64,000 bases of DNA from a virus: positions 62,001-126,000 of the IMG/VR virus record IMGVR_UViG_3300046005_000547; one strand, 5' to 3'. Positions 3,248 through 63,900 of this stretch are shown here, piece after piece. Numbering within the stretch: position 1 is the first letter of the stretch; each line of letters starts with the position of its first letter. The translations under genes were made by a program, and so were the position numbers. Under the pieces are notes generated by a model. The model did no database searches and had not been told where the DNA came from. It worked only from the letters and a program-made list of their open reading frames with translations.

Positions 3248-3610
3248 ATGAACACATTTGAACAATTCAAACAGACGGTGATGGAAGAATTTGCTGGTCG
3301 ATTGAATGAAGAAAAACAAACAAAATTGGTAGTCAAAAAGATTAGTCCTAAATGGTATAGAATCGTTATTGACACAGATAAATGGGATATACCAGAAACC
3401 GTTGTTGATATCCTACAGACTGAACATAAAGAATGGTCTGTATGCTATGGTGAGAAAATGTCATATTCAGTTGGTGAACAATCGCATGATACTCGTAGAT
3501 GGGTATTTGTTAAGTTAAACAATGCCAAAGTTTATGCGTTAGATCTAGCTGCTGCCATTAAAAATGATAAACCTTATCCTTCTATCTTAGACGACAAATA
3601 CGAACTTTAA
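3248..3610 (+). CDS. Protein with shared capsid-targeting-like N-terminus, 120 aa
   Basis: The first 21 residues (MNTFEQFKQTVMEEF, then AGRLNE) are nearly identical to those of the gene at 5471 and similar to the genes at 10144 and 60156, while the remainders are unrelated. T4 internal head proteins share an N-terminal capsid-targeting sequence that the gp21 protease removes after L/I-x-E; here LNE stands at the junction. That makes this a candidate internal head protein packaged and processed in the prohead. The rest (about 100 residues) matches nothing I know. A near-consensus late box precedes it and a terminator follows it. Confidence 0.75.
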   Translation: MNTFEQFKQTVMEEFAGRLNEEKQTKLVVKKISPKWYRIVIDTDKWDIPETVVDILQTEHKEWSVCYGEKMSYSVGEQSHDTRRWVFVKLNNAKVYALDLAAAIKNDKPYPSILDDKYEL

Positions 3611-3708: not shown

Positions 3709-5457
3709 ATGACTATTATCAAAGTGAGAAAACTAGACGAAGCGTTTCTATACGTTACGTCAGAATTTGGAATTGAACAAGAAATGTATGAATACTTTTC
3801 ATTCATGTCACCTGGAGCAAAGTTCGATCCAAGAGTGAGGAATCGTCTATGGGATGGTAAAATTAGATTGTATTCTCAATCTAATAAAAAGATTCATGTA
3901 GGATTATTTTCTTACATAGAGAAATTTGCCAGAATAAATGATTATCAAATACAATTAGAAAATGAAATTATTGAACAAGTTGATGTAACATATTCTGATA
4001 TTGAAAGATTTGTTAACAGTTTGAATATACATTCTCGTGGCGTAAAACTTGATGTCAGAGATTATCAGCTTTCTGCTATATATGAATCAATTAAAAACAA
4101 ACGTATAATCTGCGTCTCTCCCACGTCTTGTTTAGACCCAAATACCGAAATTGAAGTTTTATTTGATAATACAAAAAAATCAATAACATTATTAGAACTC
4201 GATTCCCTAGTTAAAAATGGAGTAAATCCAAAAATTAACACCCCTTCTGGTTATGAAAAAATAACAGAAACATATAGAAAATTTGGGAATGGTATAGAAA
4301 TTCACTTCGAAGATAATTCAACACCAATAAAGGCAGCAAATAATCATTTAATGTATTTAAACGATAATTGGATAGATTCAATTGATGTTAAAATAGGAGA
4401 CGATTTTGGTAATAAAAAAGTTACCAAAATCAATAAATTGGAACCACAAGAATGGATAGATTTTTCGATAGATGCAGACCATGAATCATATTTCCATAAT
4501 GATATATTACATCACAATTCTGGAAAATCTGTGATAATATATGCGATTATACGATGGTATATTGAACACAATTTAAAATGTTTAATCATTGTCCCGAGTA
4601 CAATGTTAGTTGACCAGATGTTTGGTGATTTTAAAGATTATTCTTCCCATAATGGTTGGAATGTAGATAAACATTGTAATAAGATTTATTCTGGTCATAA
4701 ATGTCATCTTGATTTAGATTGCGCTATTTCTACATGGCAAACTTTACAGAACATAAAACATCAATTACAATTCTTTGAAAATTTGGATGTTTTAATAGGC
4801 GACGAATCACATCTATACAAAGCTGCTGTTGTAACAAAATTACTAAACAATATGCCAAACACTTCCATCAGAATAGGAACGACTGGTACATTAGATGGAA
4901 AACAAATCTCCGAATTACAATTAACGGGTTTATTTGGTAAAGTGTACAAGGTCATTACGACCAAAGAACTAATGGATGAGAATAGTGTTACTACATTAGA
5001 CATTTCATGTATCCTGTTGAATTATGATTCAGATACAAAGAAGTTATTGACCAAAACCGAATATCAGAAGGAAATTGATTGGTTGGTCCAAAATGATAAA
5101 CGTAACAAATTTATTGTTAATCTAGCTGCGTCTCAACAAGAAACAACTTTGGTGTTATTTCAATATGTTGAGAAACATGGATTACCTCTATACAAAATGT
5201 TAAAGGAAAAATGCCCCGACAGAGAGATTCATTATATTTCAGGATCTGTAGATAATTCCAAACGAGATGAAATTAGGAATTCAATGAATACATCATCTCG
5301 AATGATTAAGATATGGTTCGGTGAATTATACATATCTGTTGGCGAAAACGAAAATGTGTTATTGAGTAACGGTGATTTAATACAATCAAAATATATCAAC
5401 GAGAATCATGATATAGATAACAATTGGATTAAATCAAGAAAATTAAACAAACTATGA
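3709..5457 (+). CDS. uvsW: UvsW-type DNA helicase with intein, C-terminally truncated
   Basis: Residues 1-140 and 271-530 follow T4 UvsW, a superfamily 2 helicase that unwinds branched DNA and R-loops: N-terminal FDPRVRNRLWDGKIRL, motif I PTS-SGKS, LIIVPSTMLVDQM, STWQTLQNI, DESH box, TGTLDGK and YISGSVDNSKRDEIR. Motif I is split by an intein (141-270). After about residue 530 the match stops abruptly where motif V should begin; the last 50 residues do not look like helicase and motifs V and VI are absent. Extein length is about 452 residues against about 500 in T4. The gene has no clear ribosome site, and the product may be inactive unless completed from elsewhere. Confidence 0.85.
   Translation: MTIIKVRKLDEAFLYVTSEFGIEQEMYEYFSFMSPGAKFDPRVRNRLWDGKIRLYSQSNKKIHVGLFSYIEKFARINDYQIQLENEIIEQVDVTYSDIERFVNSLNIHSRGVKLDVRDYQLSAIYESIKNKRIICVSPTSCLDPNTEIEVLFDNTKKSITLLELDSLVKNGVNPKINTPSGYEKITETYRKFGNGIEIHFEDNSTPIKAANNHLMYLNDNWIDSIDVKIGDDFGNKKVTKINKLEPQEWIDFSIDADHESYFHNDILHHNSGKSVIIYAIIRWYIEHNLKCLIIVPSTMLVDQMFGDFKDYSSHNGWNVDKHCNKIYSGHKCHLDLDCAISTWQTLQNIKHQLQFFENLDVLIGDESHLYKAAVVTKLLNNMPNTSIRIGTTGTLDGKQISELQLTGLFGKVYKVITTKELMDENSVTTLDISCILLNYDSDTKKLLTKTEYQKEIDWLVQNDKRNKFIVNLAASQQETTLVLFQYVEKHGLPLYKMLKEKCPDREIHYISGSVDNSKRDEIRNSMNTSSRMIKIWFGELYISVGENENVLLSNGDLIQSKYINENHDIDNNWIKSRKLNKL
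4129..4518 (+). other. Mini-intein in UvsW (130 aa)
   Basis: The Walker A motif is interrupted exactly between PTS and SGKS. The insert starts with Cys141 (CLDPNTEIEV), has a block-B-like NNHLMYLNDNWI and ends with HHN followed by Ser+1. These are the splice-junction residues of a class 1 intein. At 130 residues it has only the splicing (Hint) domain and no homing endonuclease. Confidence 0.9.
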
Positions 5458-5470
5458 AAGGAAAACTAAA

Positions 5471-5752
5471 ATGAGTGCATTCGAACAATTTAAACAAACG
5501 GTGATGGAAGAATTTGCTGGTCGTATAGACGAAAGTAAAATCATGTTTGCTGTGACTGTTGATGGTGATAAGGTTGACGTGAAATCTAAAGATAAAGATT
5601 TCAAAGTTGACGTAAAGGATGTTGAAAATGAAAAAGAAGTTATCGATACGGTCGTTAAATTCTTAGAAAAACAAGGTTATAAAAATGTGAATGGACATCC
5701 AAATACATCTGAAAAAGGTGGAGTCGTTGGTGTCATCCACGTAGAGAAATAA
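5471..5752 (+). CDS. Protein with shared capsid-targeting-like N-terminus, 93 aa
   Basis: The first 18 residues (MSAFEQFKQTVMEEFAGR) match those of the gene at 3248 almost exactly, also at DNA level, and end in IDE, the I-x-E pattern cut by T4-type prohead protease. The rest is a small charged domain rich in Lys and Asp (VDVKSKDKDFKVDVKDVE), unrelated to the gene at 3248. A strong ribosome site (AAAGGA) precedes the ATG and a terminator follows. Likely an internal head protein by analogy with T4; that is inference. Confidence 0.75.
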   Translation: MSAFEQFKQTVMEEFAGRIDESKIMFAVTVDGDKVDVKSKDKDFKVDVKDVENEKEVIDTVVKFLEKQGYKNVNGHPNTSEKGGVVGVIHVEK

Positions 5753-5757
5753 ATTAG

Positions 5758-5795
5758 AATCCCATCCGCTGAAAAGTTGATGGGATTTTTATTGG
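5758..5795 (+). terminator. Intrinsic terminator
   Basis: AATCCCATC pairs with GATGGGATT around CGCTGAAAAGTT, followed by TTTATT. The same hairpin sequence recurs after the gene ending at 10471. Confidence 0.85.
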
Positions 5796-5829
5796 ATAAA
5801 ATTTTTATATCTTAAGATGAAATTCAAAG

Positions 5830-5835
5830 TATAAT
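5830..5835 (+). promoter_or_regulatory. Putative -10 box TATAAT
   Basis: TATAAT lies 29 bases upstream of the ATG at 5864, just after a terminator. No good -35 is visible at 16-17 bp (TATCTT at best), so this is a weak promoter call. Confidence 0.4.
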
Positions 5836-5863
5836 AAACATTCATTTTATACAGGAGAAATAT

Positions 5864-6226
5864 ATGAATAACTATGTAGGATTCTATAAAACTAAAAAAG
5901 AACGTTATGATTTAGAAACATATTGTATTGATGAAAATTGGCATCTGTTTGATTATATTGAACAAGATAATGAAGGTGTTATCGTTGCTCCGATGCGGTT
6001 GGAAGAAATTGATTATAAATTCCTTGAGATGGTATTTAAACGTAATGATATGAAATATCATGTTGATGGATATGTAAAATTCAGCATTGAACTCATCGAG
6101 GAATGGGAAGAATTTAAGAAAGATGAATTCTGTTATAATTATTCAACAGAAGACCATGAACGTAATAGGAAACTCCTTGATGAATATAACAAACAAGGTT
6201 ATAATGTATATCTAACAAGCGAATAA
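5864..6226 (+). CDS. Hypothetical protein, 120 aa
   Basis: Unknown acidic protein rich in Tyr, Glu and Asp. The ATG has a strong ribosome site (CAGGAG). It ends 11 bases before the topoisomerase large subunit gene and probably shares its transcript. No motif recognised. Confidence 0.7.
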   Translation: MNNYVGFYKTKKERYDLETYCIDENWHLFDYIEQDNEGVIVAPMRLEEIDYKFLEMVFKRNDMKYHVDGYVKFSIELIEEWEEFKKDEFCYNYSTEDHERNRKLLDEYNKQGYNVYLTSE

Positions 6227-6237
6227 GGAACAAAATT

Positions 6238-8538
6238 ATGATTGAACATTTAAAAACAATTGAACAACAATATCAAGTATTAACTGAATTAGAACATATC
6301 AGAAAACGTGTTGGTATGTATGCAGGTAGTCCTGTATTAGAAGAACATGAAGAATTCATCTATTCTATCCAAAACAATAAAATGGAATTACAAACCATTT
6401 CTTATATTCCAGCATTGATTAAGATTATCTCGGAAGGAATTGACAACGTAGTTGATGAACATAACAGAAATCCAAAAAAGATTAACGAATTGAAATTATC
6501 AATTAAAGATAATGAAATCATTATTTCTGATAATGGCGGTATTCCTGTACAAATTCATGCAGATTTCGGTAAATATGTTCCTGAAATTATATTTGGTACA
6601 TTACGTTCTGGTTCTAATTATTCAGATGATGATGCTCAATCCCTGATAGGAACAAATGGATTAGGAGCGAAATTAATTTCTGTTCTAAGTGAATACTTTA
6701 TTGTTGAGACATCTGATGGTTCTAATTATTTCCATCAAGAATATAAAAATGGAATGTCAGAACGTTCTGAACCCGTTATCACTAAATCAAAGAAACATTT
6801 TACAACATTAACATTTAAACCAGATTTAGAATATTTTGGTTTGGAATCATTTGATGAACATCATACATTAAAAATCATTAGACGATTGGTTGATGTTGCC
6901 GCCAATAATCCTTTATTGAAGGTGTATTTCAATGATGAAAAATTCAATGTATCTGCGTTCGATGATTACATTTCATTATATTCAGAAAGTTATGTATATG
7001 ATTCAACTGATGATTGGAAAATTGGTTTGTCTGCGTCTTCTGGTTTCAATCAGACCAGTTTTGTTAATAGTGTAGAAACGTATATGGGTGGAACTCATGT
7101 TAATTACGTTGTAAATCAGATTACAGAGAAACTCAGAGCTTACGTCAAAAAGAAACATAAGATTGATATTAAACCATCTGATATCAAAAGTCATTTACAT
7201 GTATTTGTTTCATGTAAAATCAATCGACCAAAGTTTTCCAGTCAGACCAAAGAAAACATGATTAGCACTATAACAGATTTTGGTTCATCATGGTCTTGTT
7301 CAGATAAATTCATCAATAAGATTATTACATTGGAAGTTGTACAATCAATTTTGGATTGGGCGGAAGCAAAGGAAAATGCTCTAAAGAATGCAGAATTACG
7401 CAAATTGAATAAATCTGTTGACAAATTGAATCCGGCAAGAGTGGACAAGTTTGAAGACGCTAATGAGAAGAAAGATAGAAGTAAGTGTACAATTTTCCTT
7501 ACAGAGGGTAACTCGGCAATGGGGGCGATAATGTCTGCCAGAGACCCTGAATTACATGGAGCTTTTGCGCTTAAAGGTAAACCATTAAATGTGACGGATA
7601 TTGATGCCAAAAAGTTAATGGAAAATAATGAATTCAAAAGTATTCTAACAATCATGGGGTTGAAACTGGGTGAACAAGTCACACCAATGACTCCATTACG
7701 TTTTGGTAAAATCTGTTTTCTAACGGATGCGGATTGTATTACAGAAGAACATTATGTGTTGACAGAATCTGGCGAAAAACTTATCTCAGATGTTAATCCG
7801 TTAGAAGATAAAGTGTTGACGCATTTGAATCAATATGCAGTAGTGGAATATGTTAACATTAAATCAACAGATGTTGTAATCAGAATCACTTCTGGTAATG
7901 ATATTGTTGAAGGTACACCTGAACATAAACATGTAATCTTTAGAGATGGTTGGGATCTTCCAAAAAAATATATGTTGAAAGAAATTCTACCAACGGATAT
8001 GATAATCAAATATATTGATGGACAACAAATCAATCATCCCATTGATTCTATTGAAACTATCGAAAAAACTATAACAACATATGATTTAACAGTTAAAGGT
8101 CATCATACATTTTATGTTAGACATAAAGATTCTGAAAATTATATCTTAACGCATAATTGTGATGGTTCTCATATCATTGGTCTGTTAATTAACATGTTTC
8201 ATTCATTCTGGCCTGAATTGTTTGAATTAGGATATATCTACAGATTCAGAACCCCATTGATTAAAGTCAATGTTGGTAAAGACGTATTAGAATTCTATGA
8301 TGAAAAAGAGTTTGATGAATGGAAATCCAAGAACACAAAAAAGTTCACATCAAAATACTTCAAAGGATTAGGTACATCCACGGCAAAGGATTTCAAAGGA
8401 TACCTAGCTAATTCCGATAAGAATATGGTACAATATACAATTGATGACATTAAAGATTCAGATTCAATTAAATTGGCATTCTCCAAGAATTCAGATTCAG
8501 CTGATTTACGCAAACAATGGTTAAACATCGAAGGTTAA
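6238..8538 (+). CDS. 39: DNA topoisomerase II large subunit (gp39/gp60 fused) with intein
   Basis: ATPase and TOPRIM parts of the T4-type type II topoisomerase in one chain. The GHKL ATPase shows EGIDNVVDE, DNGGIPV and GTNGLGAK; the TOPRIM part has FLTEGNSAMGA and the metal site TDAD-CDGSHI. In T4 this subunit is split into genes 39 and 60; here it is continuous apart from a 141-residue intein (500-640) placed inside the TOPRIM metal-binding motif. Without it the protein is about 625 residues. The partner gp52 follows 3 bases downstream. T4 topoisomerase acts in replication initiation and fork movement. Confidence 0.93.
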   Translation: MIEHLKTIEQQYQVLTELEHIRKRVGMYAGSPVLEEHEEFIYSIQNNKMELQTISYIPALIKIISEGIDNVVDEHNRNPKKINELKLSIKDNEIIISDNGGIPVQIHADFGKYVPEIIFGTLRSGSNYSDDDAQSLIGTNGLGAKLISVLSEYFIVETSDGSNYFHQEYKNGMSERSEPVITKSKKHFTTLTFKPDLEYFGLESFDEHHTLKIIRRLVDVAANNPLLKVYFNDEKFNVSAFDDYISLYSESYVYDSTDDWKIGLSASSGFNQTSFVNSVETYMGGTHVNYVVNQITEKLRAYVKKKHKIDIKPSDIKSHLHVFVSCKINRPKFSSQTKENMISTITDFGSSWSCSDKFINKIITLEVVQSILDWAEAKENALKNAELRKLNKSVDKLNPARVDKFEDANEKKDRSKCTIFLTEGNSAMGAIMSARDPELHGAFALKGKPLNVTDIDAKKLMENNEFKSILTIMGLKLGEQVTPMTPLRFGKICFLTDADCITEEHYVLTESGEKLISDVNPLEDKVLTHLNQYAVVEYVNIKSTDVVIRITSGNDIVEGTPEHKHVIFRDGWDLPKKYMLKEILPTDMIIKYIDGQQINHPIDSIETIEKTITTYDLTVKGHHTFYVRHKDSENYILTHNCDGSHIIGLLINMFHSFWPELFELGYIYRFRTPLIKVNVGKDVLEFYDEKEFDEWKSKNTKKFTSKYFKGLGTSTAKDFKGYLANSDKNMVQYTIDDIKDSDSIKLAFSKNSDSADLRKQWLNIEG
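7735..8157 (+). other. Mini-intein in topoisomerase large subunit (141 aa)
   Basis: The insert sits in the TOPRIM motif after TDAD. It begins with Cys500 (CITEEHYVLTESGEKL), includes GTPEHKHVIF (block-B-like) and ends THN followed by Cys+1 of CDGSHI. No endonuclease domain is present. The junction residues and the exact restoration of TDADCDGSHI support an active splicing element. Confidence 0.9.
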
Positions 8539-8541
8539 AAT

Positions 8542-9849
8542 ATGAAAGTACAAGAATTTTTCAATAATGAATTCATCCATTTCTCAATTTATGATTGTCA
8601 ACGTTCTATTCCATCAGTCATCGATGGATTTAAGATTTCACAGAGAAAATGTATATATGGATTGATTAAACGAGGTGAGAATGCAGGTGAAGCAAAAGTG
8701 GCACAACTATCTGGTTCCATTGCATCAGTTTCTAATTATCATCACGGAGAAGACAGCCTTAACACAACTCTGGTTGGCATGGCAAGAAACTATGCTGGAT
8801 CAAACAATCTTAATTACTTGATTCCATCTGGTCAATTTGGTAGTAGATTGGATAAAGAATCCGCTGCCCCAAGATATATCTTCACTGAATTTTCACCAGA
8901 CTTCAGGAAGATATTCAAGAAAGATGATGACATCATCTTAGAATATCTAATGGATGATGGTGAACAAATTGAACCAAAATTCTATGTTCCAATTTTACCA
9001 AATGTGTTAATCAACGGAGCAACGGGTGTTGGTACGGGATTTGCTTCAACTATCCTGAATTACAATCCAGAATATCTCAGAAAAAACATCTTATCGTTAT
9101 TGGATACCAAATTTACATCTGTTGAATTATTACCATGGTATAGAGGATTCAAAGGACAGATTGTAAAAGATGAATCAAAGTTCATTGTAACAGGATGTTA
9201 TGAAATCGTTGCTCCAAATAAGATTCATATAACAGAATTACCAATTGGTGTGTTCAATGACGGATATAAGAAAGTCTTGTTCAAATTACAGGATGACGGA
9301 TTCATCAAAGATTTCAAAAATACATCAACCGAAGAATCGTTCGATTTCCTTATTACAACAGTCAAACCGATTGACAAATTAACGCATGAAGAGATTGTAA
9401 AGAAATTCAAATTGGAAACCTCTCAATCACAGAATCTTACATTATGGGATGAAAATGGTAAGATTAAAGTATTTGAGAATGTCAATCAGATTGTCAAACA
9501 TTTTGTTGATTTCAGATTACAGAAATACGATGAACGACGTATCAAACAATTAGAATTATTGACCGCTGATTTGAATTGGTCTATTGAGAAACAACGATTC
9601 ATCCAATTCTATATTGAGAATTCTAAGATGTTCTCAAGTAAATCCAAGAAGGAATTGGAATCAATGTTGATGTTTGAAGGGTTCGAGTTTGTTGATAGAT
9701 TGATGGATATTCGTATCTACAATTTAACAAAGGATGATATTGACAAATTGAATACAAGTATCGATAAATTGAATAAGGAAATCGCAGGATTGAATAAGAT
9801 GACTGCTGTTAAGATGTATATTAAAGAATTAGAGGAATTGAAACTTTAA
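8542..9849 (+). CDS. 52: DNA topoisomerase II medium subunit (gp52)
   Basis: 435 residues, close to T4 gp52 (about 440). It is the DNA breakage-reunion subunit: the N-terminus has IPSVIDGFKISQRKCIYG, and AAPRYIFTEFSPDF contains the expected catalytic tyrosine next to the conserved Arg (PRY). GATGVGTGFAS and the later coiled-coil region match the family. The ribosome site GAAGG lies at the end of the preceding gene and the two subunits are co-transcribed. The stop codon overlaps the next small gene (TAATG). Confidence 0.93.
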   Translation: MKVQEFFNNEFIHFSIYDCQRSIPSVIDGFKISQRKCIYGLIKRGENAGEAKVAQLSGSIASVSNYHHGEDSLNTTLVGMARNYAGSNNLNYLIPSGQFGSRLDKESAAPRYIFTEFSPDFRKIFKKDDDIILEYLMDDGEQIEPKFYVPILPNVLINGATGVGTGFASTILNYNPEYLRKNILSLLDTKFTSVELLPWYRGFKGQIVKDESKFIVTGCYEIVAPNKIHITELPIGVFNDGYKKVLFKLQDDGFIKDFKNTSTEESFDFLITTVKPIDKLTHEEIVKKFKLETSQSQNLTLWDENGKIKVFENVNQIVKHFVDFRLQKYDERRIKQLELLTADLNWSIEKQRFIQFYIENSKMFSSKSKKELESMLMFEGFEFVDRLMDIRIYNLTKDDIDKLNTSIDKLNKEIAGLNKMTAVKMYIKELEELKL

Positions 9850-10013
9850 TGGACAATCGTAATTATTTGTATAAGACAATAGAAGAATGTCAAGAAATTA
9901 GGAGTGATGCTATTGAATATCATAAGTTGAAGAAAGGAATCTTCAGAGGATATTGGAAATGTTATTATTGTTACAATACTATACATGAAGATAGGTTCAA
10001 CGGTTTTATATAA
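9849..10013 (+). CDS. Small protein with CxxC, 54 aa
   Basis: Starts at an ATG overlapping the gp52 stop by one base. The basic protein has CYYC at residues 38-41 and could bind metal. It ends where the late box TATAAATA (10009-10016) lies. Function unknown. Confidence 0.55.
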   Translation: MDNRNYLYKTIEECQEIRSDAIEYHKLKKGIFRGYWKCYYCYNTIHEDRFNGFI

Positions 10014-10016
10014 ATA
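10009..10016 (+). promoter_or_regulatory. T4-type late promoter box TATAAATA
   Basis: Perfect TATAAATA, the box read by gp55-containing RNA polymerase in T4. It precedes the frameshifted gene at 10144, whose N-terminus resembles a capsid-targeting peptide, in line with late expression. Confidence 0.6.
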
Positions 10017-10030
10017 AAATTAGAAAGGTC

Positions 10031-10058
10031 TATCGACGTAATGAGAAATCGTTATAAT
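10031..10058 (+). promoter_or_regulatory. Promoter TATCGA-N16-TATAAT
   Basis: TATCGA at 10031-10036 and TATAAT at 10053-10058 with 16 bp between them, a one-base variant of the recurring TTTCGA-N16-TATAAT pair. It precedes the gene at 10144. Confidence 0.6.
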
Positions 10059-10077
10059 AGATCTTAGATAAACTACT

Positions 10078-10098
10078 AAATAAGATTGAATCTTATTT
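10078..10098. repeat. Perfect 10-bp palindrome
   Basis: AAATAAGATT-G-AATCTTATTT, in the leader between the promoter at 10053 and the gene at 10144. It could be an operator or an RNA hairpin; no T-run follows, so it is not a typical terminator. Confidence 0.5.
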
Positions 10099-10143
10099 AA
10101 AATCATTTCGTCTTAATTGACGCACAACAAAAGGAAACAAAAC

Positions 10144-10471
10144 ATGAGTACATTTAAAGAATTCCAAGCATTGGTTATGGAAGAATTCTCATCAGTTAAT
10201 GAAGCATTAGAAAACGGTAAATGGAAAGCAGGTAAATGGGTCGAAGATTTATCTATGATAGATAATTCTAAACGTAAAAAAAATTGAAGTTGAAAAAGAA
10301 AAATACACCATCCATATCAAATTGGATAATGGCGAAATCACAAAACAAAAGGTTACAATTCCGTTCGGGACTTCTGTTGCAGATAAAGCGAATTCTATTT
10401 TCCAAACAATTAAACACAATGCCGAAACATGGGGTGCCCCTGCTCCAGTAGAAATTTTAAAAATTGTTTAA
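10144..10471 (+). pseudogene. Frameshifted gene with capsid-targeting-like N-terminus
   Basis: Frame 1 starts MSTFKEFQALVMEEFSSVNE, the shared N-terminal peptide, and stops at a TGA after an A8 run (10276-10283). The +1 frame continues without a gap (IEVEKEKYTIHIKLDNG to PVEILKIV) to 10471. Removing one A from the run gives a single protein of about 108 residues. The likely processing site is VNE near residue 20. It could be a real loss-of-function slip, a homopolymer sequencing error, or transcriptional slippage on the A-run. The late box at 10009 precedes it and a terminator follows. Confidence 0.7.
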
Positions 10472-10494
10472 TAAAAACAATCGTATTGTTTTAG

Positions 10495-10530
10495 AATCCC
10501 ATCCGCTGAAAAGTTGATGGGATTTTTATT
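10495..10530 (+). terminator. Intrinsic terminator
   Basis: AATCCCATC and GATGGGATT around CGCTGAAAAGTT with a following T-run; the sequence is the same as the terminator at 5758. Confidence 0.85.
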
Positions 10531-10603
10531 GCGTAAAATATACATTCTAAATGATTCTTAAAACATCCATTATTTGTCCGTTAATCCATCTTAATGATAT
10601 ATG

Positions 10604-10822
10604 TCAATCAACTCTACAGGACTATTTGAATCCATCTTAAAACAACAAATAATTGGACAGGATTTAATGTTAACATCGAATCAATAAATTCACTGTATCG
10701 AGAACATCTTAAAGATTCATTATCGCTATTCTAGACATCGAGTTTGTAAATATCAACATAATAATACTTCTTGACTTTTCCAGCAAATTCCATTATAGTA
10801 GACTATGTCGACGTTTCAGTTA
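10604..10822 (+). repeat. Promoter cassette copy A (upstream of HNH gene)
   Basis: Member of a seven-copy family. It starts with TCAATCAACTCTACAGG, has ATCGA boxes at about offsets 72, 94 and 134, and reaches the -10 box at offset 190, then the leader GACTATGTCGACGTTTCAG. The region 10531-10603 before it holds the family's upstream stretch CATCCATTATTTGTCC. No gene lies between 10472 and 10941. The transcript would run into the HNH gene. Confidence 0.8.
10771..10799 (+). promoter_or_regulatory. Cassette A promoter TTGACT-N17-TATAGT
   Basis: Near-perfect sigma70-type promoter: TTGACT at 10771-10776, 17 bp, TATAGT at 10794-10799. Copy C of the cassette has the same TTGACT type; the other five have TTTCGA. 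Confidence 0.8.
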
Positions 10823-10941
10823 GTGTATATTACTACTTGATTATTCTTTTATATTACTACAAGATTCTTTTCGATTTATCTTTCTTTTTATAATTTTTAA
10901 CATATAATTTTAATCTTTAAACAAACAATGAGGGATTTACA

Positions 10942-11583
10942 ATGACATTATCGGCAGGAACACTTAGAGCAAGACTTGAATACAAACCAGAAGCTGGAGT
11001 ATTTGTTGGTAGATTAGATAGAGCCCGTAAGGGTACATTTGACAAGAAAGGATATATGGTAATCAATATTGATGGTAAGAAATATCTAGGTCATCGATTG
11101 GCATATCTTTACATGAATGGTAAATTTCCTGAACATGAAGTGAGTTTCAAAGATAAGAATACATCAAATTGTAAATGGGATAATCTAATTGAAGTTAATC
11201 CAACACAAAGAGCTTTATTATCTAAATCTGATACAAGTTCAAAATCTGGAGTAAAGGGATTGAATTTAGATAAACGAGGGTTCTACGTGGCAAGAGTGAC
11301 TCTTGATAAGAAACCCATTCAGAAATCATTCAAGTTGGACCAAAAAGATGAAGCTGTTAAATGGTTGGAATCAATCAGAGAATCTATTGGCGTCAATAAA
11401 GTGAAATCTAAAACCAACACTGGCGGGTATTATTATGACGTCAATCATAAATGGTTGAAAGATAAAGACAAACCAGTTATATTAAAGTTGACTCCAGTGG
11501 TTAAACAAGAACAACCGAAAGTTATAACAAAATTTGAATACGGACTTTCATTGTTATCTAATCTAGTGGAACAGTATTCGTAA
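10942..11583 (+). CDS. HNH/AP2-type homing-endonuclease-like protein, catalytic site degenerate
   Basis: 213 residues. GHRLAYLYMNGKFPE and the following NCKWDNLIEV are the HNH_3 pattern, and SGVKGLNLDKRGFYVARV is an AP2-like DNA-binding module. In active HNH_3 proteins the first part ends with a DH/NG pair; here it reads VSFKDKNTSN, so the expected catalytic His is missing. It may therefore be an inactive homing endonuclease or a DNA-binding protein only. GAGGG before the ATG is a good ribosome site. The gene lies between two cassette copies (A and B), as a mobile insertion might. Confidence 0.75.
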   Translation: MTLSAGTLRARLEYKPEAGVFVGRLDRARKGTFDKKGYMVINIDGKKYLGHRLAYLYMNGKFPEHEVSFKDKNTSNCKWDNLIEVNPTQRALLSKSDTSSKSGVKGLNLDKRGFYVARVTLDKKPIQKSFKLDQKDEAVKWLESIRESIGVNKVKSKTNTGGYYYDVNHKWLKDKDKPVILKLTPVVKQEQPKVITKFEYGLSLLSNLVEQYS

Positions 11584-11590
11584 TCTAAAG

Positions 11591-11627
11591 AATCCCAGAC
11601 GTCTTAATTGACTCTGGGATTTTTATT
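11591..11627 (+). terminator. Intrinsic terminator
   Basis: AATCCCAGA pairs with TCTGGGATT, followed by TTTATT, directly after the HNH-type gene. Confidence 0.85.
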
Positions 11628-11720
11628 GGATAAAATTTACATAATTGGTTTGTTGAACTGATACAGGAACATCCATTATTTGTCCAATAATCCATCCTAG
11701 TGGAATCTTTGTATAATACG

Positions 11721-11942
11721 TCAATCAACTCTACAGGATACATTGAATCCATCTTAAATCAACAATATGGGCGTTTTAAATTGAACATAATCGTCGAAAC
11801 TGTAAATTCAACATATCGAAAGAGACATCGAGTATTCTTAAGATGAAATAATGTATCGAGTCTGTAAATTACAATCATCGAGAAACTCCTTTCGAAATCG
11901 ATAAAAAGACAGTATACTAGACTATGTCGACGGTTTGAGTTA
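11721..11942 (+). repeat. Promoter cassette copy B
   Basis: Begins with the family 20-mer TCAATCAACTCTACAGGATA, contains TCGA boxes at about offsets 73, 95, 135 and 157, and reaches the -10 box at offset 192, then GACTATGTCGACGG. It fills the gap 11584-12001 between the HNH gene and the convergent terminase gene. No terminator is visible before 12001, so its transcript would run antisense into the 3' end of gene 17. Confidence 0.8.
11890..11918 (+). promoter_or_regulatory. Cassette B promoter TTTCGA-N17-TATACT
   Basis: TTTCGA at 11890-11895, 17 bp, TATACT at 11913-11918. The promoter body is the same as in copy G (AATCGATAAAAAGACAG spacer). Confidence 0.7.
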
Positions 11943-12001
11943 GTTCTATAGATTCAATTAAGTTTTCTTTTATATTACTTCAAGACTCTTTACATAATAT
12001 A

Positions 12002-13981
12002 TTAGAAATGATATACTTCCACTTTATCTTCATCCAAACCGTCATTAATATATCCTACAGGTAACATTTGTTGGTCGATATAATCCATCTGTTGATTATA
12101 CAATTCCTTTCTAATGTCGACATCTCCCATATCCTTGATAAACGACGTTGAACATAACCAAGCAAATATAACACAACACATCACTAGATCGTCATGATTA
12201 GGTGGATCCGCAGAGTAACTACCTTGTCTTTCGATAAACACAGAAAACTCCTGTATAATATCAGGATCGAATATCAACAACTTAGATTCCTCAATCAACG
12301 ACTTCAATGTCATACATCCAATTCGTTTAATCTTCTTATCCATATTCAATCCCACTTCCATTGTTCCTGAAAATGATTCACATGGTATCTGTCCCTTTGG
12401 TGTCTTCTTAATGGAAATCAAATTCTCGTATTCCAAATCATCCTGAAGTATCTGTGCCACCTCCTTCGAACAATTTATCTCCACCAAAATGAATGCCTCG
12501 TTATACTCCATACCTATTTTATACAGGATATTTGGATATAACATAGGGCTAATCTTATTATCTCTATACTTACCTACAATCTTATACGGGAAATTCGTCA
12601 CATCGAAAATAACGGCTGATGAATAATCCCCACCAACACCCTTCGATGTATCCGCCGATATAATATACTGATGCCCTTCAATAGGTGCTTCCTGTATATC
12701 TAATCCATCTCTTGAATAAATGTATGGAATCGGTGACATCGATGAAATAGATGATGAATTTATAAGTGTGGCAGATGAACCTAAGAATTCACATAACACC
12801 TCTTGATTGAATTTAATCTCACCTAATATCTTTAACTGTTCATCTGCCCAAGTTGGATCTCGTTCTGGATGTTCGCTCCAATGTACAGTGAATGGTACAA
12901 ATCCGTTAGTTCCTTGTTGAGCATCATTCCAATATTTCCAAAAATGATTGTATCCTAACGGAGTTGACGTCAATACAACTTTTGTTTCTTTACCAGAGGA
13001 AATAGTAGGATACACAGAAGCGAAGAATGCGTCGGCGACGGCATTAGGAATAATTGCCGCTTCGTCCACGTATAAGAAATTACAATTATGTGAAATTACT
13101 CCATTAGAATAATAACAATGGACATCTTCAACAGTGTCTATATCGTAAACAGTTTCTGGTGTAATCTCAACAATAGATGAAATGATTTTATCCGATAGAA
13201 TATCATTTACATTTAAATCTTCGCATCTAATCCATTCTCCATTTATTTTAAATCTATGATCCAGTGTTGAATTGATATGAATGTCATCTGTAAATTTTAA
13301 TTGTAATAATCGTTCCGGCGTTCCTTGATTCAAAACTCCTTTAAAAGATTTGAAACCATAAGGAGTTTTGATTTTGAACGATTCTTTATATGAATTGTAT
13401 AATTCCTCTATAGAAATATCAAAAACATAATCCCCGTCCAAAATGGTAACAATGGTTTCTCCTGTTACACAAGACTTACCCCTGATTCCAGATGCAGAAG
13501 TTGCGGCAGTGAATATCTTAGAACCATTTTCTAAATGCATATCACCTTTGTTCAAGGATAGTACACCGTGTTGTAACCATTTCGGTAAAGATTCATACAT
13601 TAATTGTATACGACTTAGTACCTCTCTAGCAGCCGCGGCTTTATTTGCTAAAATGGCGGTAGTCTTATGGTTATTGAATAATGTGTAATGTAATATGTAT
13701 GCTGAAGTTACCGTAGTTTTTCCGAGCTGGCGCCCAATTAATGCTAAAACCTTGCGTTCACTGTGGAGTAAGCGAACATAATCCTTTTGAAACGGATACA
13801 TTTCAAAATTCACTAATCCCCTATCCAATGAAACAACTTTACAGTATGTAACAATAAAATAACAAGGATCTTGTTTGCATTTAATGTATTCTTCTATTTG
13901 TTCTTGAGTGAAATCAACTTTATATCCAGTTGGTTTTAAATTTTCATTACCATTATAACCAAGTAATTTATTATCTGCCAT
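12002..13981 (-). CDS. 17: Large terminase subunit (gp17) with intein
   Basis: ATP-driven packaging motor and nuclease. Seen: Walker A region LIGRQLGKTTVTS, the Walker B region FLYVDEAAIIPN, the coupling motif TSTPLGYNHFW, and the nuclease part with YIISADTSKG (first metal Asp) and NHDDLVMC. A 129-residue intein (171-299) splits the chain just before Walker B, leaving about 530 extein residues (T4 gp17 is 610). The ribosome site AAGGA precedes the ATG. It is the last gene of the minus-strand late block, next to a homing endonuclease gene that starts just upstream. Confidence 0.95.
   Translation of the reverse strand: MADNKLLGYNGNENLKPTGYKVDFTQEQIEEYIKCKQDPCYFIVTYCKVVSLDRGLVNFEMYPFQKDYVRLLHSERKVLALIGRQLGKTTVTSAYILHYTLFNNHKTTAILANKAAAAREVLSRIQLMYESLPKWLQHGVLSLNKGDMHLENGSKIFTAATSASGIRGKSCVTGETIVTILDGDYVFDISIEELYNSYKESFKIKTPYGFKSFKGVLNQGTPERLLQLKFTDDIHINSTLDHRFKINGEWIRCEDLNVNDILSDKIISSIVEITPETVYDIDTVEDVHCYYSNGVISHNCNFLYVDEAAIIPNAVADAFFASVYPTISSGKETKVVLTSTPLGYNHFWKYWNDAQQGTNGFVPFTVHWSEHPERDPTWADEQLKILGEIKFNQEVLCEFLGSSATLINSSSISSMSPIPYIYSRDGLDIQEAPIEGHQYIISADTSKGVGGDYSSAVIFDVTNFPYKIVGKYRDNKISPMLYPNILYKIGMEYNEAFILVEINCSKEVAQILQDDLEYENLISIKKTPKGQIPCESFSGTMEVGLNMDKKIKRIGCMTLKSLIEESKLLIFDPDIIQEFSVFIERQGSYSADPPNHDDLVMCCVIFAWLCSTSFIKDMGDVDIRKELYNQQMDYIDQQMLPVGYINDGLDEDKVEVYHF
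13085..13471 (-). other. Mini-intein in terminase (129 aa)
   Basis: Begins after GIRGKS with Cys171 (CVTGETIVTILDG), contains NSTLDHRFKINGEWI (block-B-like) and VYDIDTVEDVHCYY, and ends SHN followed by Cys+1 of CNFLYVDEAA. No endonuclease domain. The site is the start of the Walker B segment. Confidence 0.9.
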
Positions 13982-13983
13982 GT

Positions 13984-15132
13984 TTAATTCCTTTTAAACA
14001 TAATATCGAATGAAGTATAAACATGTTCTGGATTTTCTACATATCCATTAACATCTTCCATGAGTGTGTCCAAATCAATGTCATTTAAAACTTCTGTCCA
14101 ACCAAATTCACCATAATCGTCTTTTTTAATGTAATTCTTATACTTACGTTTTAATAACTGTTCGGTTTGGAATGCATGATTTATATTTTCCATCTTCTGA
14201 AACATAATTGTATTGCATGTATTCAATAAATGTAATGGATATCTATGATGTAATTTTGTTTTAAATGTAATACCAATTTTAATTTTATCGTCAAATTGTA
14301 TAACATAAAAATATCCATCTTCGGTTAATTCTTTACTCCATAACGATCTAAAATTGACTTTGGATGTTTTTATTTTAGATCTAGATTGATATAATTCATT
14401 TGCTAATTCAACATCACCATTAGTTTTATTAAGAGCCCAATCAAATGAAGATGAATCTTTTTTTCTATTAGATTCATCAATAAGATCTTGTGTTCTAGCA
14501 TTCAGAGTATTTTGCCAATTTATTTGTCTTTGTTCCCAAAATGCTTTACCTTCAATTTCTCCATATTTAGAAATACATTTTTCTAATGTAAACTTGCATG
14601 TGGTGCTAATTATTTCTAACGCTTCCTCTTCGGAACGACCTCTACTCGTGTGATACTCAATGGTGTTGAATATGTTATTATTTTCACGTTTTGTGTCACT
14701 AGCAGTTTTAAACAATTCCTGTATATGATTTTCTACATAGTCGTCAGGTAATTCTTCATATTTGATAAACTTCTTAGAATAAGGTGATAATCGACCACCG
14801 TGTTGATATGCTGGGTTCTTATCACCTTTAATTCTGTTGCATTTAGATACGCAAACTATAGGTCCATATTTCTCTCTGTATTCTAATTGAGATAATCCGT
14901 GGGTCTTAGGATGTTCTGCTAGATCTCTGGTTCTGAATCCACAGACCCCGCATTCAACATATTCGTCCTTGTCCATATCGTCTGGAAATTTAATTCTACT
15001 ACGTTCAATTGTAGTTTTCCATCTAGCATTAAATGCTGATATTTTTTTACATTTATCGGAACATAATGTGTTCAATCTATTATTGGGAATGAATGGAGTT
15101 TCGCAAACCTTACATGTAATTTCTTTAAACAT
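13984..15132 (-). CDS. Homing endonuclease, GIY-YIG superfamily (T5orf172/MUG113-like)
   Basis: 382 residues. The N-terminus has a four-cysteine zinc site (CKVCETPF to LCSDKCKK) and a MucR-like stretch (CGVCGFRTRDLAEHPKTHG). The middle holds a module with RGRSEEEAL and FTLEKCISKYG, then WEQRQINWQNTL and TQDLIDESN. The C-terminus (from about 275) has YFYVIQFDDKIKIGIT and a later FQTEQLLKRKYK, the pattern of the T5orf172/MUG113 branch of GIY-YIG nucleases. The middle module is shared with the broken endonuclease at 48701. The gene lies 2 bases before gene 17. It is a free-standing mobile gene by position and content. Confidence 0.75.
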   Translation of the reverse strand: MFKEITCKVCETPFIPNNRLNTLCSDKCKKISAFNARWKTTIERSRIKFPDDMDKDEYVECGVCGFRTRDLAEHPKTHGLSQLEYREKYGPIVCVSKCNRIKGDKNPAYQHGGRLSPYSKKFIKYEELPDDYVENHIQELFKTASDTKRENNNIFNTIEYHTSRGRSEEEALEIISTTCKFTLEKCISKYGEIEGKAFWEQRQINWQNTLNARTQDLIDESNRKKDSSSFDWALNKTNGDVELANELYQSRSKIKTSKVNFRSLWSKELTEDGYFYVIQFDDKIKIGITFKTKLHHRYPLHLLNTCNTIMFQKMENINHAFQTEQLLKRKYKNYIKKDDYGEFGWTEVLNDIDLDTLMEDVNGYVENPEHVYTSFDIMFKRN

Positions 15133-60923: not shown

Positions 60924-63900
60924 CTATCCATTAAAATTAAATCTGTTTTGAAAATAATTCAATACAGTGTTATCATCGTTCTTAACTGTCTTGGAGATAA
61001 CAGTCGTTGAATTATTGTTAACATTGGTTGGCGCGTTGACTATATTATTACCATTTGATACATTATTTTTATTGGTATTCTCTAATCTAGCGGTTTCCGT
61101 TTTCGCTGAATTTTCATATAATGCGTTAGAAATATCTCTTATCGGTTTTTCTGGCGTTTTGAAAAGAGCTTGCCCAATAGGTTCAATCTTAGTGACATCT
61201 ATTGGTAACTTTGTTTCAATAGACATATTAGATAATGTATCTGTTATGCTTGAATTAACAATTGGTATTATCTTAGAGGGTTCAATACGTTCTCCGTTAA
61301 TTGTAACATCTGGTATTATATTATTAAGGAGTTCTTCTGCTTTATTATCAATAGAAGAAGGAATATCCATTATCGGATTAATAATATCATCAATTGGTTT
61401 TGTAACAGATTGAATGTTTTGATTGACGATATTCTTCACTTCATTTATCGGATTACCAATCAACGGGTCTATTTGATTTGCTAATTGAACTACTTCATCT
61501 ATTGGATTATCATTTATTGTTACAACAGGTTCAGGAATAGATACTTCATTTGGTGGTAATGGAGTTTCCACCGTAACAGGAACTTGTTGAATCACACCCA
61601 CCGGTTTAACAATAGGTTCTTCTGATTTCAAATTTGGAAATTCAGATTCAACAGAAGGTATTGTTGATTCATTTATTGTTACAACAGGTTCAGGAATAGA
61701 TACTTCATTTGGTGGTAATGGAGTTTCTTTAGATTGTTCCTGTTTAATTTGTTCTACTGGTTTAGATTGAACATCATTTAACGGAGCTTTGCTAAGAGAT
61801 GTTAAATCGATTTCTGGTTTAGAGAATTCAGGAACAGGTTCTATCTTGTTTTCTATTTTAACAGGTTCAATCTTTGGTATTTCTTTATTTTCAGGTTCTA
61901 CTGGTTTTGGTTCTTCCGATTTACCGTTAATGAATTTCGTTGCTTCTTCTTCGACATTCTTTTTGATTTCGGTCATTCGTTCACCAACCAATGGATCTGA
62001 CATTGGTGAAATACCATACACATCTTCATAAACATCATTTGCCAATAATGCGATTGCCGCAGGTACAGCAGTGGCAACTGAACCTAAACCAGATACGGCA
62101 GCCAATCCTGCTCCAGCGATATCTCCTTTTACCAATCTACTGATACCTTCCCCAACACCTAATGCAGCACCAATCAATGGAATAGATTTACCCAACATCC
62201 CGCCCATGGCAGCAGGTAATCTTTTGGCAATAGAGGTTCCAATCAATGCAGAAGCACTTCCTTTCAATTTATTTCCAACACCGCCCAATACTTTACCGCC
62301 AACAGATTTAACTACTCCACCCATCTTACCAACAACTGTTGATTCCTTTACTCCATTAACAACATTAGACGCTAAATTTCCAATAGAAGAACCAGCAACC
62401 ATGGCAGCAGTAGCTCCACCAATCGCCTTTACTCCAGTTGATAATGGTTTGAATTTACCTCCGATTTTGGAGGCAATATCTTTTGTTGATTTTCCAAAGG
62501 ATTTAGCTTTGTTCTTTAATTTACCACCTTCTTTCTTAGCGTTACCACCAAACAACCCACCCAATAATGATGTATCGGATTCTTCTTTCTCATTGACCCC
62601 AAATTTACCCATTTTCAACAATTTGAAAATTTCTGTTTGAACATTCAATTGATTTTGTAATACATCAAATGTTTTGGATTTCTGTAAATTATCTTCAATT
62701 TGAGATTCGGAAACTTCATTCGATATATTAGTTGATTCTTTAGAGGTTTCTTTAATTGAATCAGATAACGATTTGATTTCATCTTGTGTATTGGAAACGA
62801 CAGTTGTTATCTTAGAGGACTCTTTAATTGAATCAGATAACGATTTGATTTCATCTTGTGTATTGGAAACGACAGTTGTTATCTTAGAGGTTTCTTTAAT
62901 TGAATCAGATAATGATTTATTTTCATCTTGAACTTTAGATTCAACAGTTGTTATCTTAGAGGACTCTTTAATTGAATCAGATAATGATTTGATTTCATCT
63001 TGAACTTTAGATTCAACAGTTTCCTTTTTAATTGGAGATTCAACTGGAGTCGATTGAGATGGAATATCTTTAACTGGCTCTTCTTTGACAAATGTTTTAT
63101 CCGTATCCTCTATCTGTTTTCTTAGAGAGGAAAGTTCTTCAGATAATGTTTTAAACACTTCATTGGATTCATCCGTTTTTGGTAAATCTTTAAATGTATT
63201 AAGTTTATCAAACAATTCATTGTATGATTGTTTCATATTCAATAACATTTTGGATTCTTTAATTAGATCTTTCTCAACATCAGAACGTTTTTTATCTTTC
63301 AATAATTCTGGATTTTGTTCTATTGCTTGTTGTGCATATTCTAAATGAGTTTCTTTTACATTTTGTGATTGTAATAATACATCTTTCAAACCAACAATGT
63401 CCGCAAGTTTCTGTATATTTTCATTGGACCCAAACGACAATCCTTTTGTACCAATTTGTTTTATCACAGAAGAGGTTTTGAATTCATTATATCTTGGATC
63501 TTCTTTTACATTATACTTTGGGTTGATTCGTTTAGCTTCTTTAATGTAATCTTTGAACGATTCTCTATTGGATAGATATTTTCCTAATTTTGAATCTTCT
63601 TTTACACCAATAACATTTGTTGCGAATTTCTTTAATGAAGAAAGATTACCAATTGCTGATTTTTTAAACAATGATGAGATTACATTATCCGATTTATCAA
63701 CATCATATTTACCAGAAGGTTTATTTGTTGGTTGTTCTTTTGGTTTTGATTCTGGTGCGTTATCTTTCAAAACGGGTTTCGATTCAATTCTATCTTTAAT
63801 CTCAGATAACAAATCTATCATCTTCATGGAATTGTTGAATTGTTTCTCTTCCGCGAACCTTTCTTCAAATTGAATTTCTTTATCGGATTTACCGCCTGAA

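Follow-up and report, generated by a model that had tools for sequence, protein, structure and literature searches.

The 64,000-nucleotide stretch analyzed here (the window; positions 62,001 to 126,000 of IMG/VR record IMGVR_UViG_3300046005_000547) belongs to a virus record of 234,735 bases whose genes form a T4-like set. Three of its open reading frames (ORFs), coding for the UvsW helicase, the large subunit of DNA topoisomerase II (topo) and the large terminase subunit (TerL), carry in-frame inserts (Table 1). Profile matches, the predicted fold of the UvsW insert and the comparison with empty sites in relatives confirm the sequence-based prediction of three mini-inteins without nuclease, located in catalytic motifs. 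Very probably they splice in cis as class 1 inteins and belong, as nuclease-less members, to a homing system that is widespread among T4-like phages, being retained through a constraint on deletion and spread by recombination, the topo element being the cis form of an intein accompanied by a nuclease and split in relatives.

An earlier note on this DNA had reported inserts of 130, 141 and 129 residues in active-site motifs of UvsW, topo and TerL. Both lengths and positions are exact in the sequence, and the limits given in the note, 4129 and 13471, coincide with the starting bases of the UvsW intein and of the TerL intein, the latter read on the minus strand. The terminal residues singled out in the same note, Cys1 and HN plus Ser or Cys at +1, are present at all borders: Cys1 opens the UvsW, topo and TerL inserts (3/3), and the C-terminal ends with the following residue are HHN/S in UvsW, THN/C in topo and SHN/C in TerL. 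Block B (TxxH) is full in topo (TPEH) and TerL (TLDH), and reads ANNH in UvsW, with the His kept and the Thr lost. The lack of an endonuclease domain agrees with the length of the inserts (129-141 residues) and with family scans, which gave no nuclease match in any of the three.

The Hint-type profile search suggested in the note was carried out with a profile of 133 model positions, derived from 11 inteins of other phages and from no sequence of the window. All three inserts were matched end to end (model positions 1-133; residues 141-270 of UvsW, 500-640 of topo, 171-299 of TerL), with independent E-values of 6.7e-23 for TerL, 2.5e-20 for topo and 8.8e-16 for UvsW. Matches to curated libraries were weaker: TIGR01443 intein_Cterm was above its cut-off for the topo and TerL inserts, Pfam Intein_splicing below cut-off, with the UvsW insert scoring lowest of the three in Pfam. 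The best of five AlphaFold models of the UvsW insert had a predicted local distance difference test score (pLDDT) of 82, the remaining four of 40-48. In the PDB (Foldseek), only inteins stood at the top of the matches to the UvsW model: VidaL led (E 1e-5, probability 1.00), followed by RadA and gp41-1. The best PDB matches of the UvsW and TerL inteins, VidaL and CatC, are atypically split inteins.

The inserts are not assembly artefacts, since they recur on other contigs: 3300046004_000591 carries all three host genes at 100% identity, and 3300046011_001487 carries TerL. Empty alleles were found in a sister phage (IMGVR 3300046008_000242, 249 kb, hereafter G001), 65-85% identical in protein sequence to the window phage across the insert-bearing genes and their neighbours. 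UvsW and TerL of G001 are uninterrupted, and read SPTSSGKS and RGKSVNLLYVDE, respectively. By match length, about 80 UvsW loci and 77 other TerL loci of relatives are free of inserts, and an uninterrupted Walker A motif was read directly in 76 UvsW loci. Presence and absence are reciprocal: UvsW, TerL and portal inteins are found in the window phage only, a UvsX intein in the sister only. The latter is a mini-intein of 132 amino acids (aa) with Thr at +1 (L089:1051-2896), and UvsX of the window phage is empty. An ORF of 118 aa, Vsr-like, lies directly upstream of the sister UvsX in the same locus.

At the topo site the intein occurs in different states. In the sister, topo is divided between two genes: the N-half has a 93-aa N-intein at its end, the C-half a 52-aa C-intein at its start. 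Between them lies a 413-aa ORF in which zinc-finger-like and Vsr-like parts were assigned by eye (Pfam gives no match). Topo of a third phage, L111, has the same layout, N-half, nuclease gene and C-half, at the same TDAD/C codon, and its nuclease is orthologous to that of the sister. Two ORFs with N- and C-intein, the mark of a fractured gene, are thus seen in the sister and L111, and a single ORF in the window; no copy of the sister's topo nuclease gene was found in the window phage genome. Topo of L112 (TDADTDG) and of L122 have no intein, and L112, empty, is near-identical outside the intein to L111, split. The window topo mini-intein appears to be the cis counterpart of the split intein with Vsr-like nuclease residing at the same codon in two relatives. 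The topo inteins of window and sister are 75% identical, and each is 55% identical to that of L111; a ratio of nonsynonymous to synonymous substitutions (dN/dS) of ~0.2 indicates purifying selection.

Parsimony favours a split ancestor, from which one step is enough, given that L111 and the sister are both split around orthologous nucleases and that the inteins of window and sister are more similar to each other than to that of L111. Most simply, the window lineage would have passed from split to cis through loss of the nuclease gene and refusion of the halves. The opposite order would start from the contiguous mini-intein, the split forms arising from two invasions by the nuclease gene, or from a single invasion followed by homing. 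It is unlikely, but keeps some weight, because nuclease genes are known to split inteins (fractured genes; Dassa et al. 2009, as cited in PMC10448857). Yet the sister and L111 nucleases are orthologous, sit in the same place and show full-length collinear homology, while the window and sister inteins are closest to each other, so that an extra transfer is needed.

Up to about residue 370, identity between the topo proteins of window and sister is 45%; in the intein flanks it reaches 90-93%. Topo trees conflict, with support of 1.0 each, the N-part grouping with the intein-less L122, the C-part with the sister. Conflicting trees and the jump in identity show that DNA was exchanged, with a breakpoint about 390 nucleotides upstream of the topo intein. 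Its location fits co-conversion during homing, and is not proof of it. A different arrangement was seen in L123 (L123:2456-4988), where the topo large subunit has a split intein at a second TOPRIM motif (EGD/S), with two overlapping ORFs and no nuclease gene in between.

Several observations weigh against the interpretation given here. The UvsW insert is above no cut-off in the curated libraries, and has Ala in place of the block B Thr. In topo, dS is near saturation, and the direction between cis and split forms rests on only three sequences. The topo breakpoint, being 390 nucleotides away from the intein, could be explained as ordinary phage recombination. An orthologue of the GIY-YIG nuclease candidate found next to terL also adjoins the intein-less terL of the sister, and adjacency is therefore no demonstration of cooperation with the TerL intein.

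Class 1 splicing proceeds through an N-S shift at Cys1, attack by the +1 Ser or Cys, and cyclization of the terminal Asn. Since the P-loop, the TOPRIM motif or the Walker B region is interrupted, each precursor should be inactive at its catalytic motif until the intein is excised; excision would restore SPTSSGKS in UvsW, TDADCDGSHI in topo and RGKSCNFLYVDE in TerL. The homing system would include inteins that are either contiguous or divided between two genes flanking a free homing nuclease gene; the topo intein would have lost this gene and had its halves re-fused. Such elements would persist because, at an active-site codon, any deletion that is not exact would be harmful. Recombination between co-infecting phages would carry them along together with their flanking DNA, possibly with the help of free nucleases acting as homing enzymes in trans.

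The earlier note had also raised the idea that the inteins act as conditional switches (redox or temperature). As switches, they would silence enzymes of replication and packaging until a signal arrives, be it redox, temperature or DNA. The location of all three inserts in catalytic motifs, and the sensor function that P-loop inteins can have in DnaB (PMC6195587), speak for it, but a close relative manages without inteins in UvsW and TerL, and the pattern of presence and absence is that of mobile elements. Cysteines also matter, as the redox switch of M. smegmatis DnaBi1 depends on a second cysteine (PMC6195587). The UvsW and topo inteins have Cys1 only, and hence no partner for an intra-intein disulfide; the TerL intein has cysteines at 1, 83 and 119. 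Overall, a switch role is very improbable. Similarly little credit goes to the view that at least one insert no longer splices, the host protein working unspliced or being dispensable: UvsW is already in two pieces and has lost the block B Thr, but the catalytic ends are intact in all inserts, which interrupt Walker A, TOPRIM and the region of Walker B, and the topo intein has the low dN/dS given above.

The alignment for common origin proposed in the note gave a negative answer. UvsW and TerL inteins are 24% identical, and the topo intein clusters with its own split relatives; with identities not exceeding 24% and this grouping, a recent common origin of the three is rejected. The interpretation in the note is supported in part, for three nuclease-less mini-inteins in catalytic motifs. 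The remark that three inteins in about 10 kb are unusual carries little weight, since TerL of Campylobacter phage CP21 alone has three.

Mini-inteins, split inteins with nuclease genes, and TerL inteins are already known, and GyrB inteins have been described in haloarchaea and bacteria (PMC4071816). Intein sites in UvsW Walker A and in the TOPRIM DxD motif of phage topo were not found in the literature searched. New are the series of empty, split and contiguous alleles at the same topo codon, and the UvsW tail described below. The topo intein had no match in isolated phages (50,697 records, E 0.01), and no intein locus was found among the pattern matches in bacterial genomes. Inteins are thought to move between nuclease-bearing, mini and split states, and pairs of close relatives that differ in state at a single codon are rarely at hand. 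The topo codon is known here as empty, as split with a nuclease, and as contiguous without one, with a recombination breakpoint nearby; the window and sister forms, 75% identical, provide natural cis and trans versions of one intein for splicing work.

Table 1. Features of the window discussed in the text (slashes mark intein borders)
Position	Strand	Feature	Content or evidence
3709..5457	+	uvsW N-half ORF, 582 aa	Pfam UvsW_N, ResIII; contains UvsW_N, RecA1, part of RecA2, intein, C-terminal tail; motifs V-VI absent
4129..4518	+	UvsW mini-intein, 130 aa, within Walker A, SPTS/C..HN/SGKS	Phage-intein profile, predicted fold, empty allele in sister
5305..5454	+	UvsW N-half tail, ~50 aa, Hint-like block-B fragment without Cys1	hhalign to intein profile; conserved in other split UvsW
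6238..8538	+	DNA topoisomerase II large subunit ORF (gp39-like), 766 aa	Pfam DNA_gyraseB, TOPRIM_C
7345..7350	+	Approximate recombination breakpoint, ~codon 370, L122-like N-domain / sister-like C-part	Nucleotide identity 45-68% to 85%; conflicting trees
7735..8157	+	Topo mini-intein, 141 aa, in TOPRIM DxD, TDAD/C..HN/CDG	Profile; TIGR01443 above cut-off; split orthologues L084, L111
10942..11583	+	HNH_3 homing nuclease candidate, between topo genes and terL	Pfam HNH_3 E 5e-11
12002..13981	-	Terminase large subunit (gp17-like), 659 aa	Pfam Terminase_6N, 6C
13085..13471	-	TerL mini-intein, 129 aa, ahead of Walker B, RGKS/C..HN/CNFLYVDE	Profile; TIGR01443 above cut-off; empty allele in sister
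13984..15132	-	Free-standing GIY-YIG/T5orf172-like homing nuclease candidate, between terS-like gene and terL	T5orf172 E 0.0027, below cut-off

Two genes encode UvsW. The window protein ends ahead of motif V; the C-terminal part (motifs V-VI) comes from a gene of its own, 116 aa long and 86 kb distant (G000:151,674-152,021, G000 being the window phage genome), which is 83% identical in window phage and sister, and lies apart from the N-half in the sister as well. Over its last 50 residues the N-half does not resemble UvsW. This tail is shared by unrelated phages, and closes the UvsW N-half also in Dickeya limestone-type phages, in Vibrio phage D506 and in several metagenomic virus contigs. The region between the halves is variable, hosting a nuclease gene or candidate in PP35, L159, L218 and L220, and nothing in D506, L226 and L227; the halves are distant in window and sister. 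A profile of 12 tail sequences (a five-sequence version was also run) aligned to the block-B stretch of inteins with hhalign probabilities of 87-91% and scores of 34-36; none of 200 column shuffles did as well, the maximum being 18.6. AlphaFold predicts for the tail a small beta-rich unit plus a helix (pLDDT ~60-90).

The tail starts at block B and has no Cys1, and the C-halves begin with MKPTK or similar and have no HN. A splicing N-intein was ruled out, given the absence of Cys1 and of a C-intein on the C-half. Similarly, a group I intron in split uvsW was rejected, as Rfam searches at E up to 1 found none in the first 20 kb of the window, in L086, in L107 or in L159. The tail is best read as an intein-derived fragment which no longer splices; that it docks the C-half is a guess. 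This suggests that fractured genes can survive the loss of splicing, the intein piece being retained as an ordinary part of the protein.

Genes split by homing nucleases include T4 gene 39/60 (mobA) and Aeh1 nrdA (mobE) (PMC2988022). UvsW is likewise in two pieces, with a nuclease gene in between in some phages; unlike these cases, its N-half has a Hint-like tail, and the C-half is far off in window and sister. Tentatively, and with somewhat less than even confidence, UvsW here and in many phages may be viewed as a two-polypeptide helicase derived from a split intein which no longer splices, in which the conserved Cys1-less Hint tail would dock the C-half, the parts working uncoupled even 86 kb apart; the window copy would also need a live Walker A intein, and the motif V inserts of relatives would need ribosomal bypass, frameshifting or re-initiation.

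These inserts break the frame in motif V (IIVAS/GTFSTG), at a near-identical place, in relatives with split UvsW (L159:5270-5460, L222:3240-3430, L228:4060-4300, L229:4090-4290, L218:4890-5020, L227:4040-4260), and measure +11 nucleotides (TCG TGA ATGAT TCG), +11, +6 with two stops, and +1 twice. The first is common to several contigs, and is therefore not a simple sequencing error; in the +11 insert the codon before the stop and that at resumption are identical, as in T4 gene 60 bypassing. The inserts may be read by recoding, or by re-initiation at a GTGA overlap; a continuous peptide across the insert would read IIVASSGTFSTG.

The TerL ATPase is a known intein hotspot (PMC5050341). One of the three CP21 TerL inteins is split at RG[KF]S/C, the same site as the window TerL intein, which forms one contiguous unit of 129 aa, in contrast to the split CP21 element. 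TerL inteins of PspYZU05, VmeM-32 and SRB7757 are located one motif later (VDE/C). In fractured-gene split inteins (gp41-1, NrdJ, GOS-TerL, AceL-TerL, VidaL) a nuclease gene lies between the halves, whereas the three window inteins are contiguous and nuclease-free. TerL residues 44-83, before and at Walker A, show 48% DNA identity to the sister, against 63-90% elsewhere (window 12002-13981 vs. L006:4950-6575), and look like another mosaic patch near the intein-bearing domain.

The window phage genome hosts at least four inteins. The intein profile detects those in UvsW and TerL, and one in the portal protein (47.8 kb), and the topo profile adds topo. The portal intein is about 470 aa long, has a predicted HNH-type insert of nuclease size, the HNH-like stretch being assigned by eye (G000:C1:47823-48269; L001:499-3384), and is missing in the uninterrupted portal of the sister. 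RecA-like gene 204 of Salicola phage SCTP-2 (L093:2273-4282), annotated as hypothetical, has two mini-inteins, the first being the closest relative found of the UvsW intein. Small ORFs, otherwise dissimilar, have in common an N-terminal motif close to MS.FE.FKQ.VMEEF.G (window 3248-3300 and 5471-5520; L084:10764-10850; L086:1721-1885), possibly a scaffold or capsid targeting sequence.

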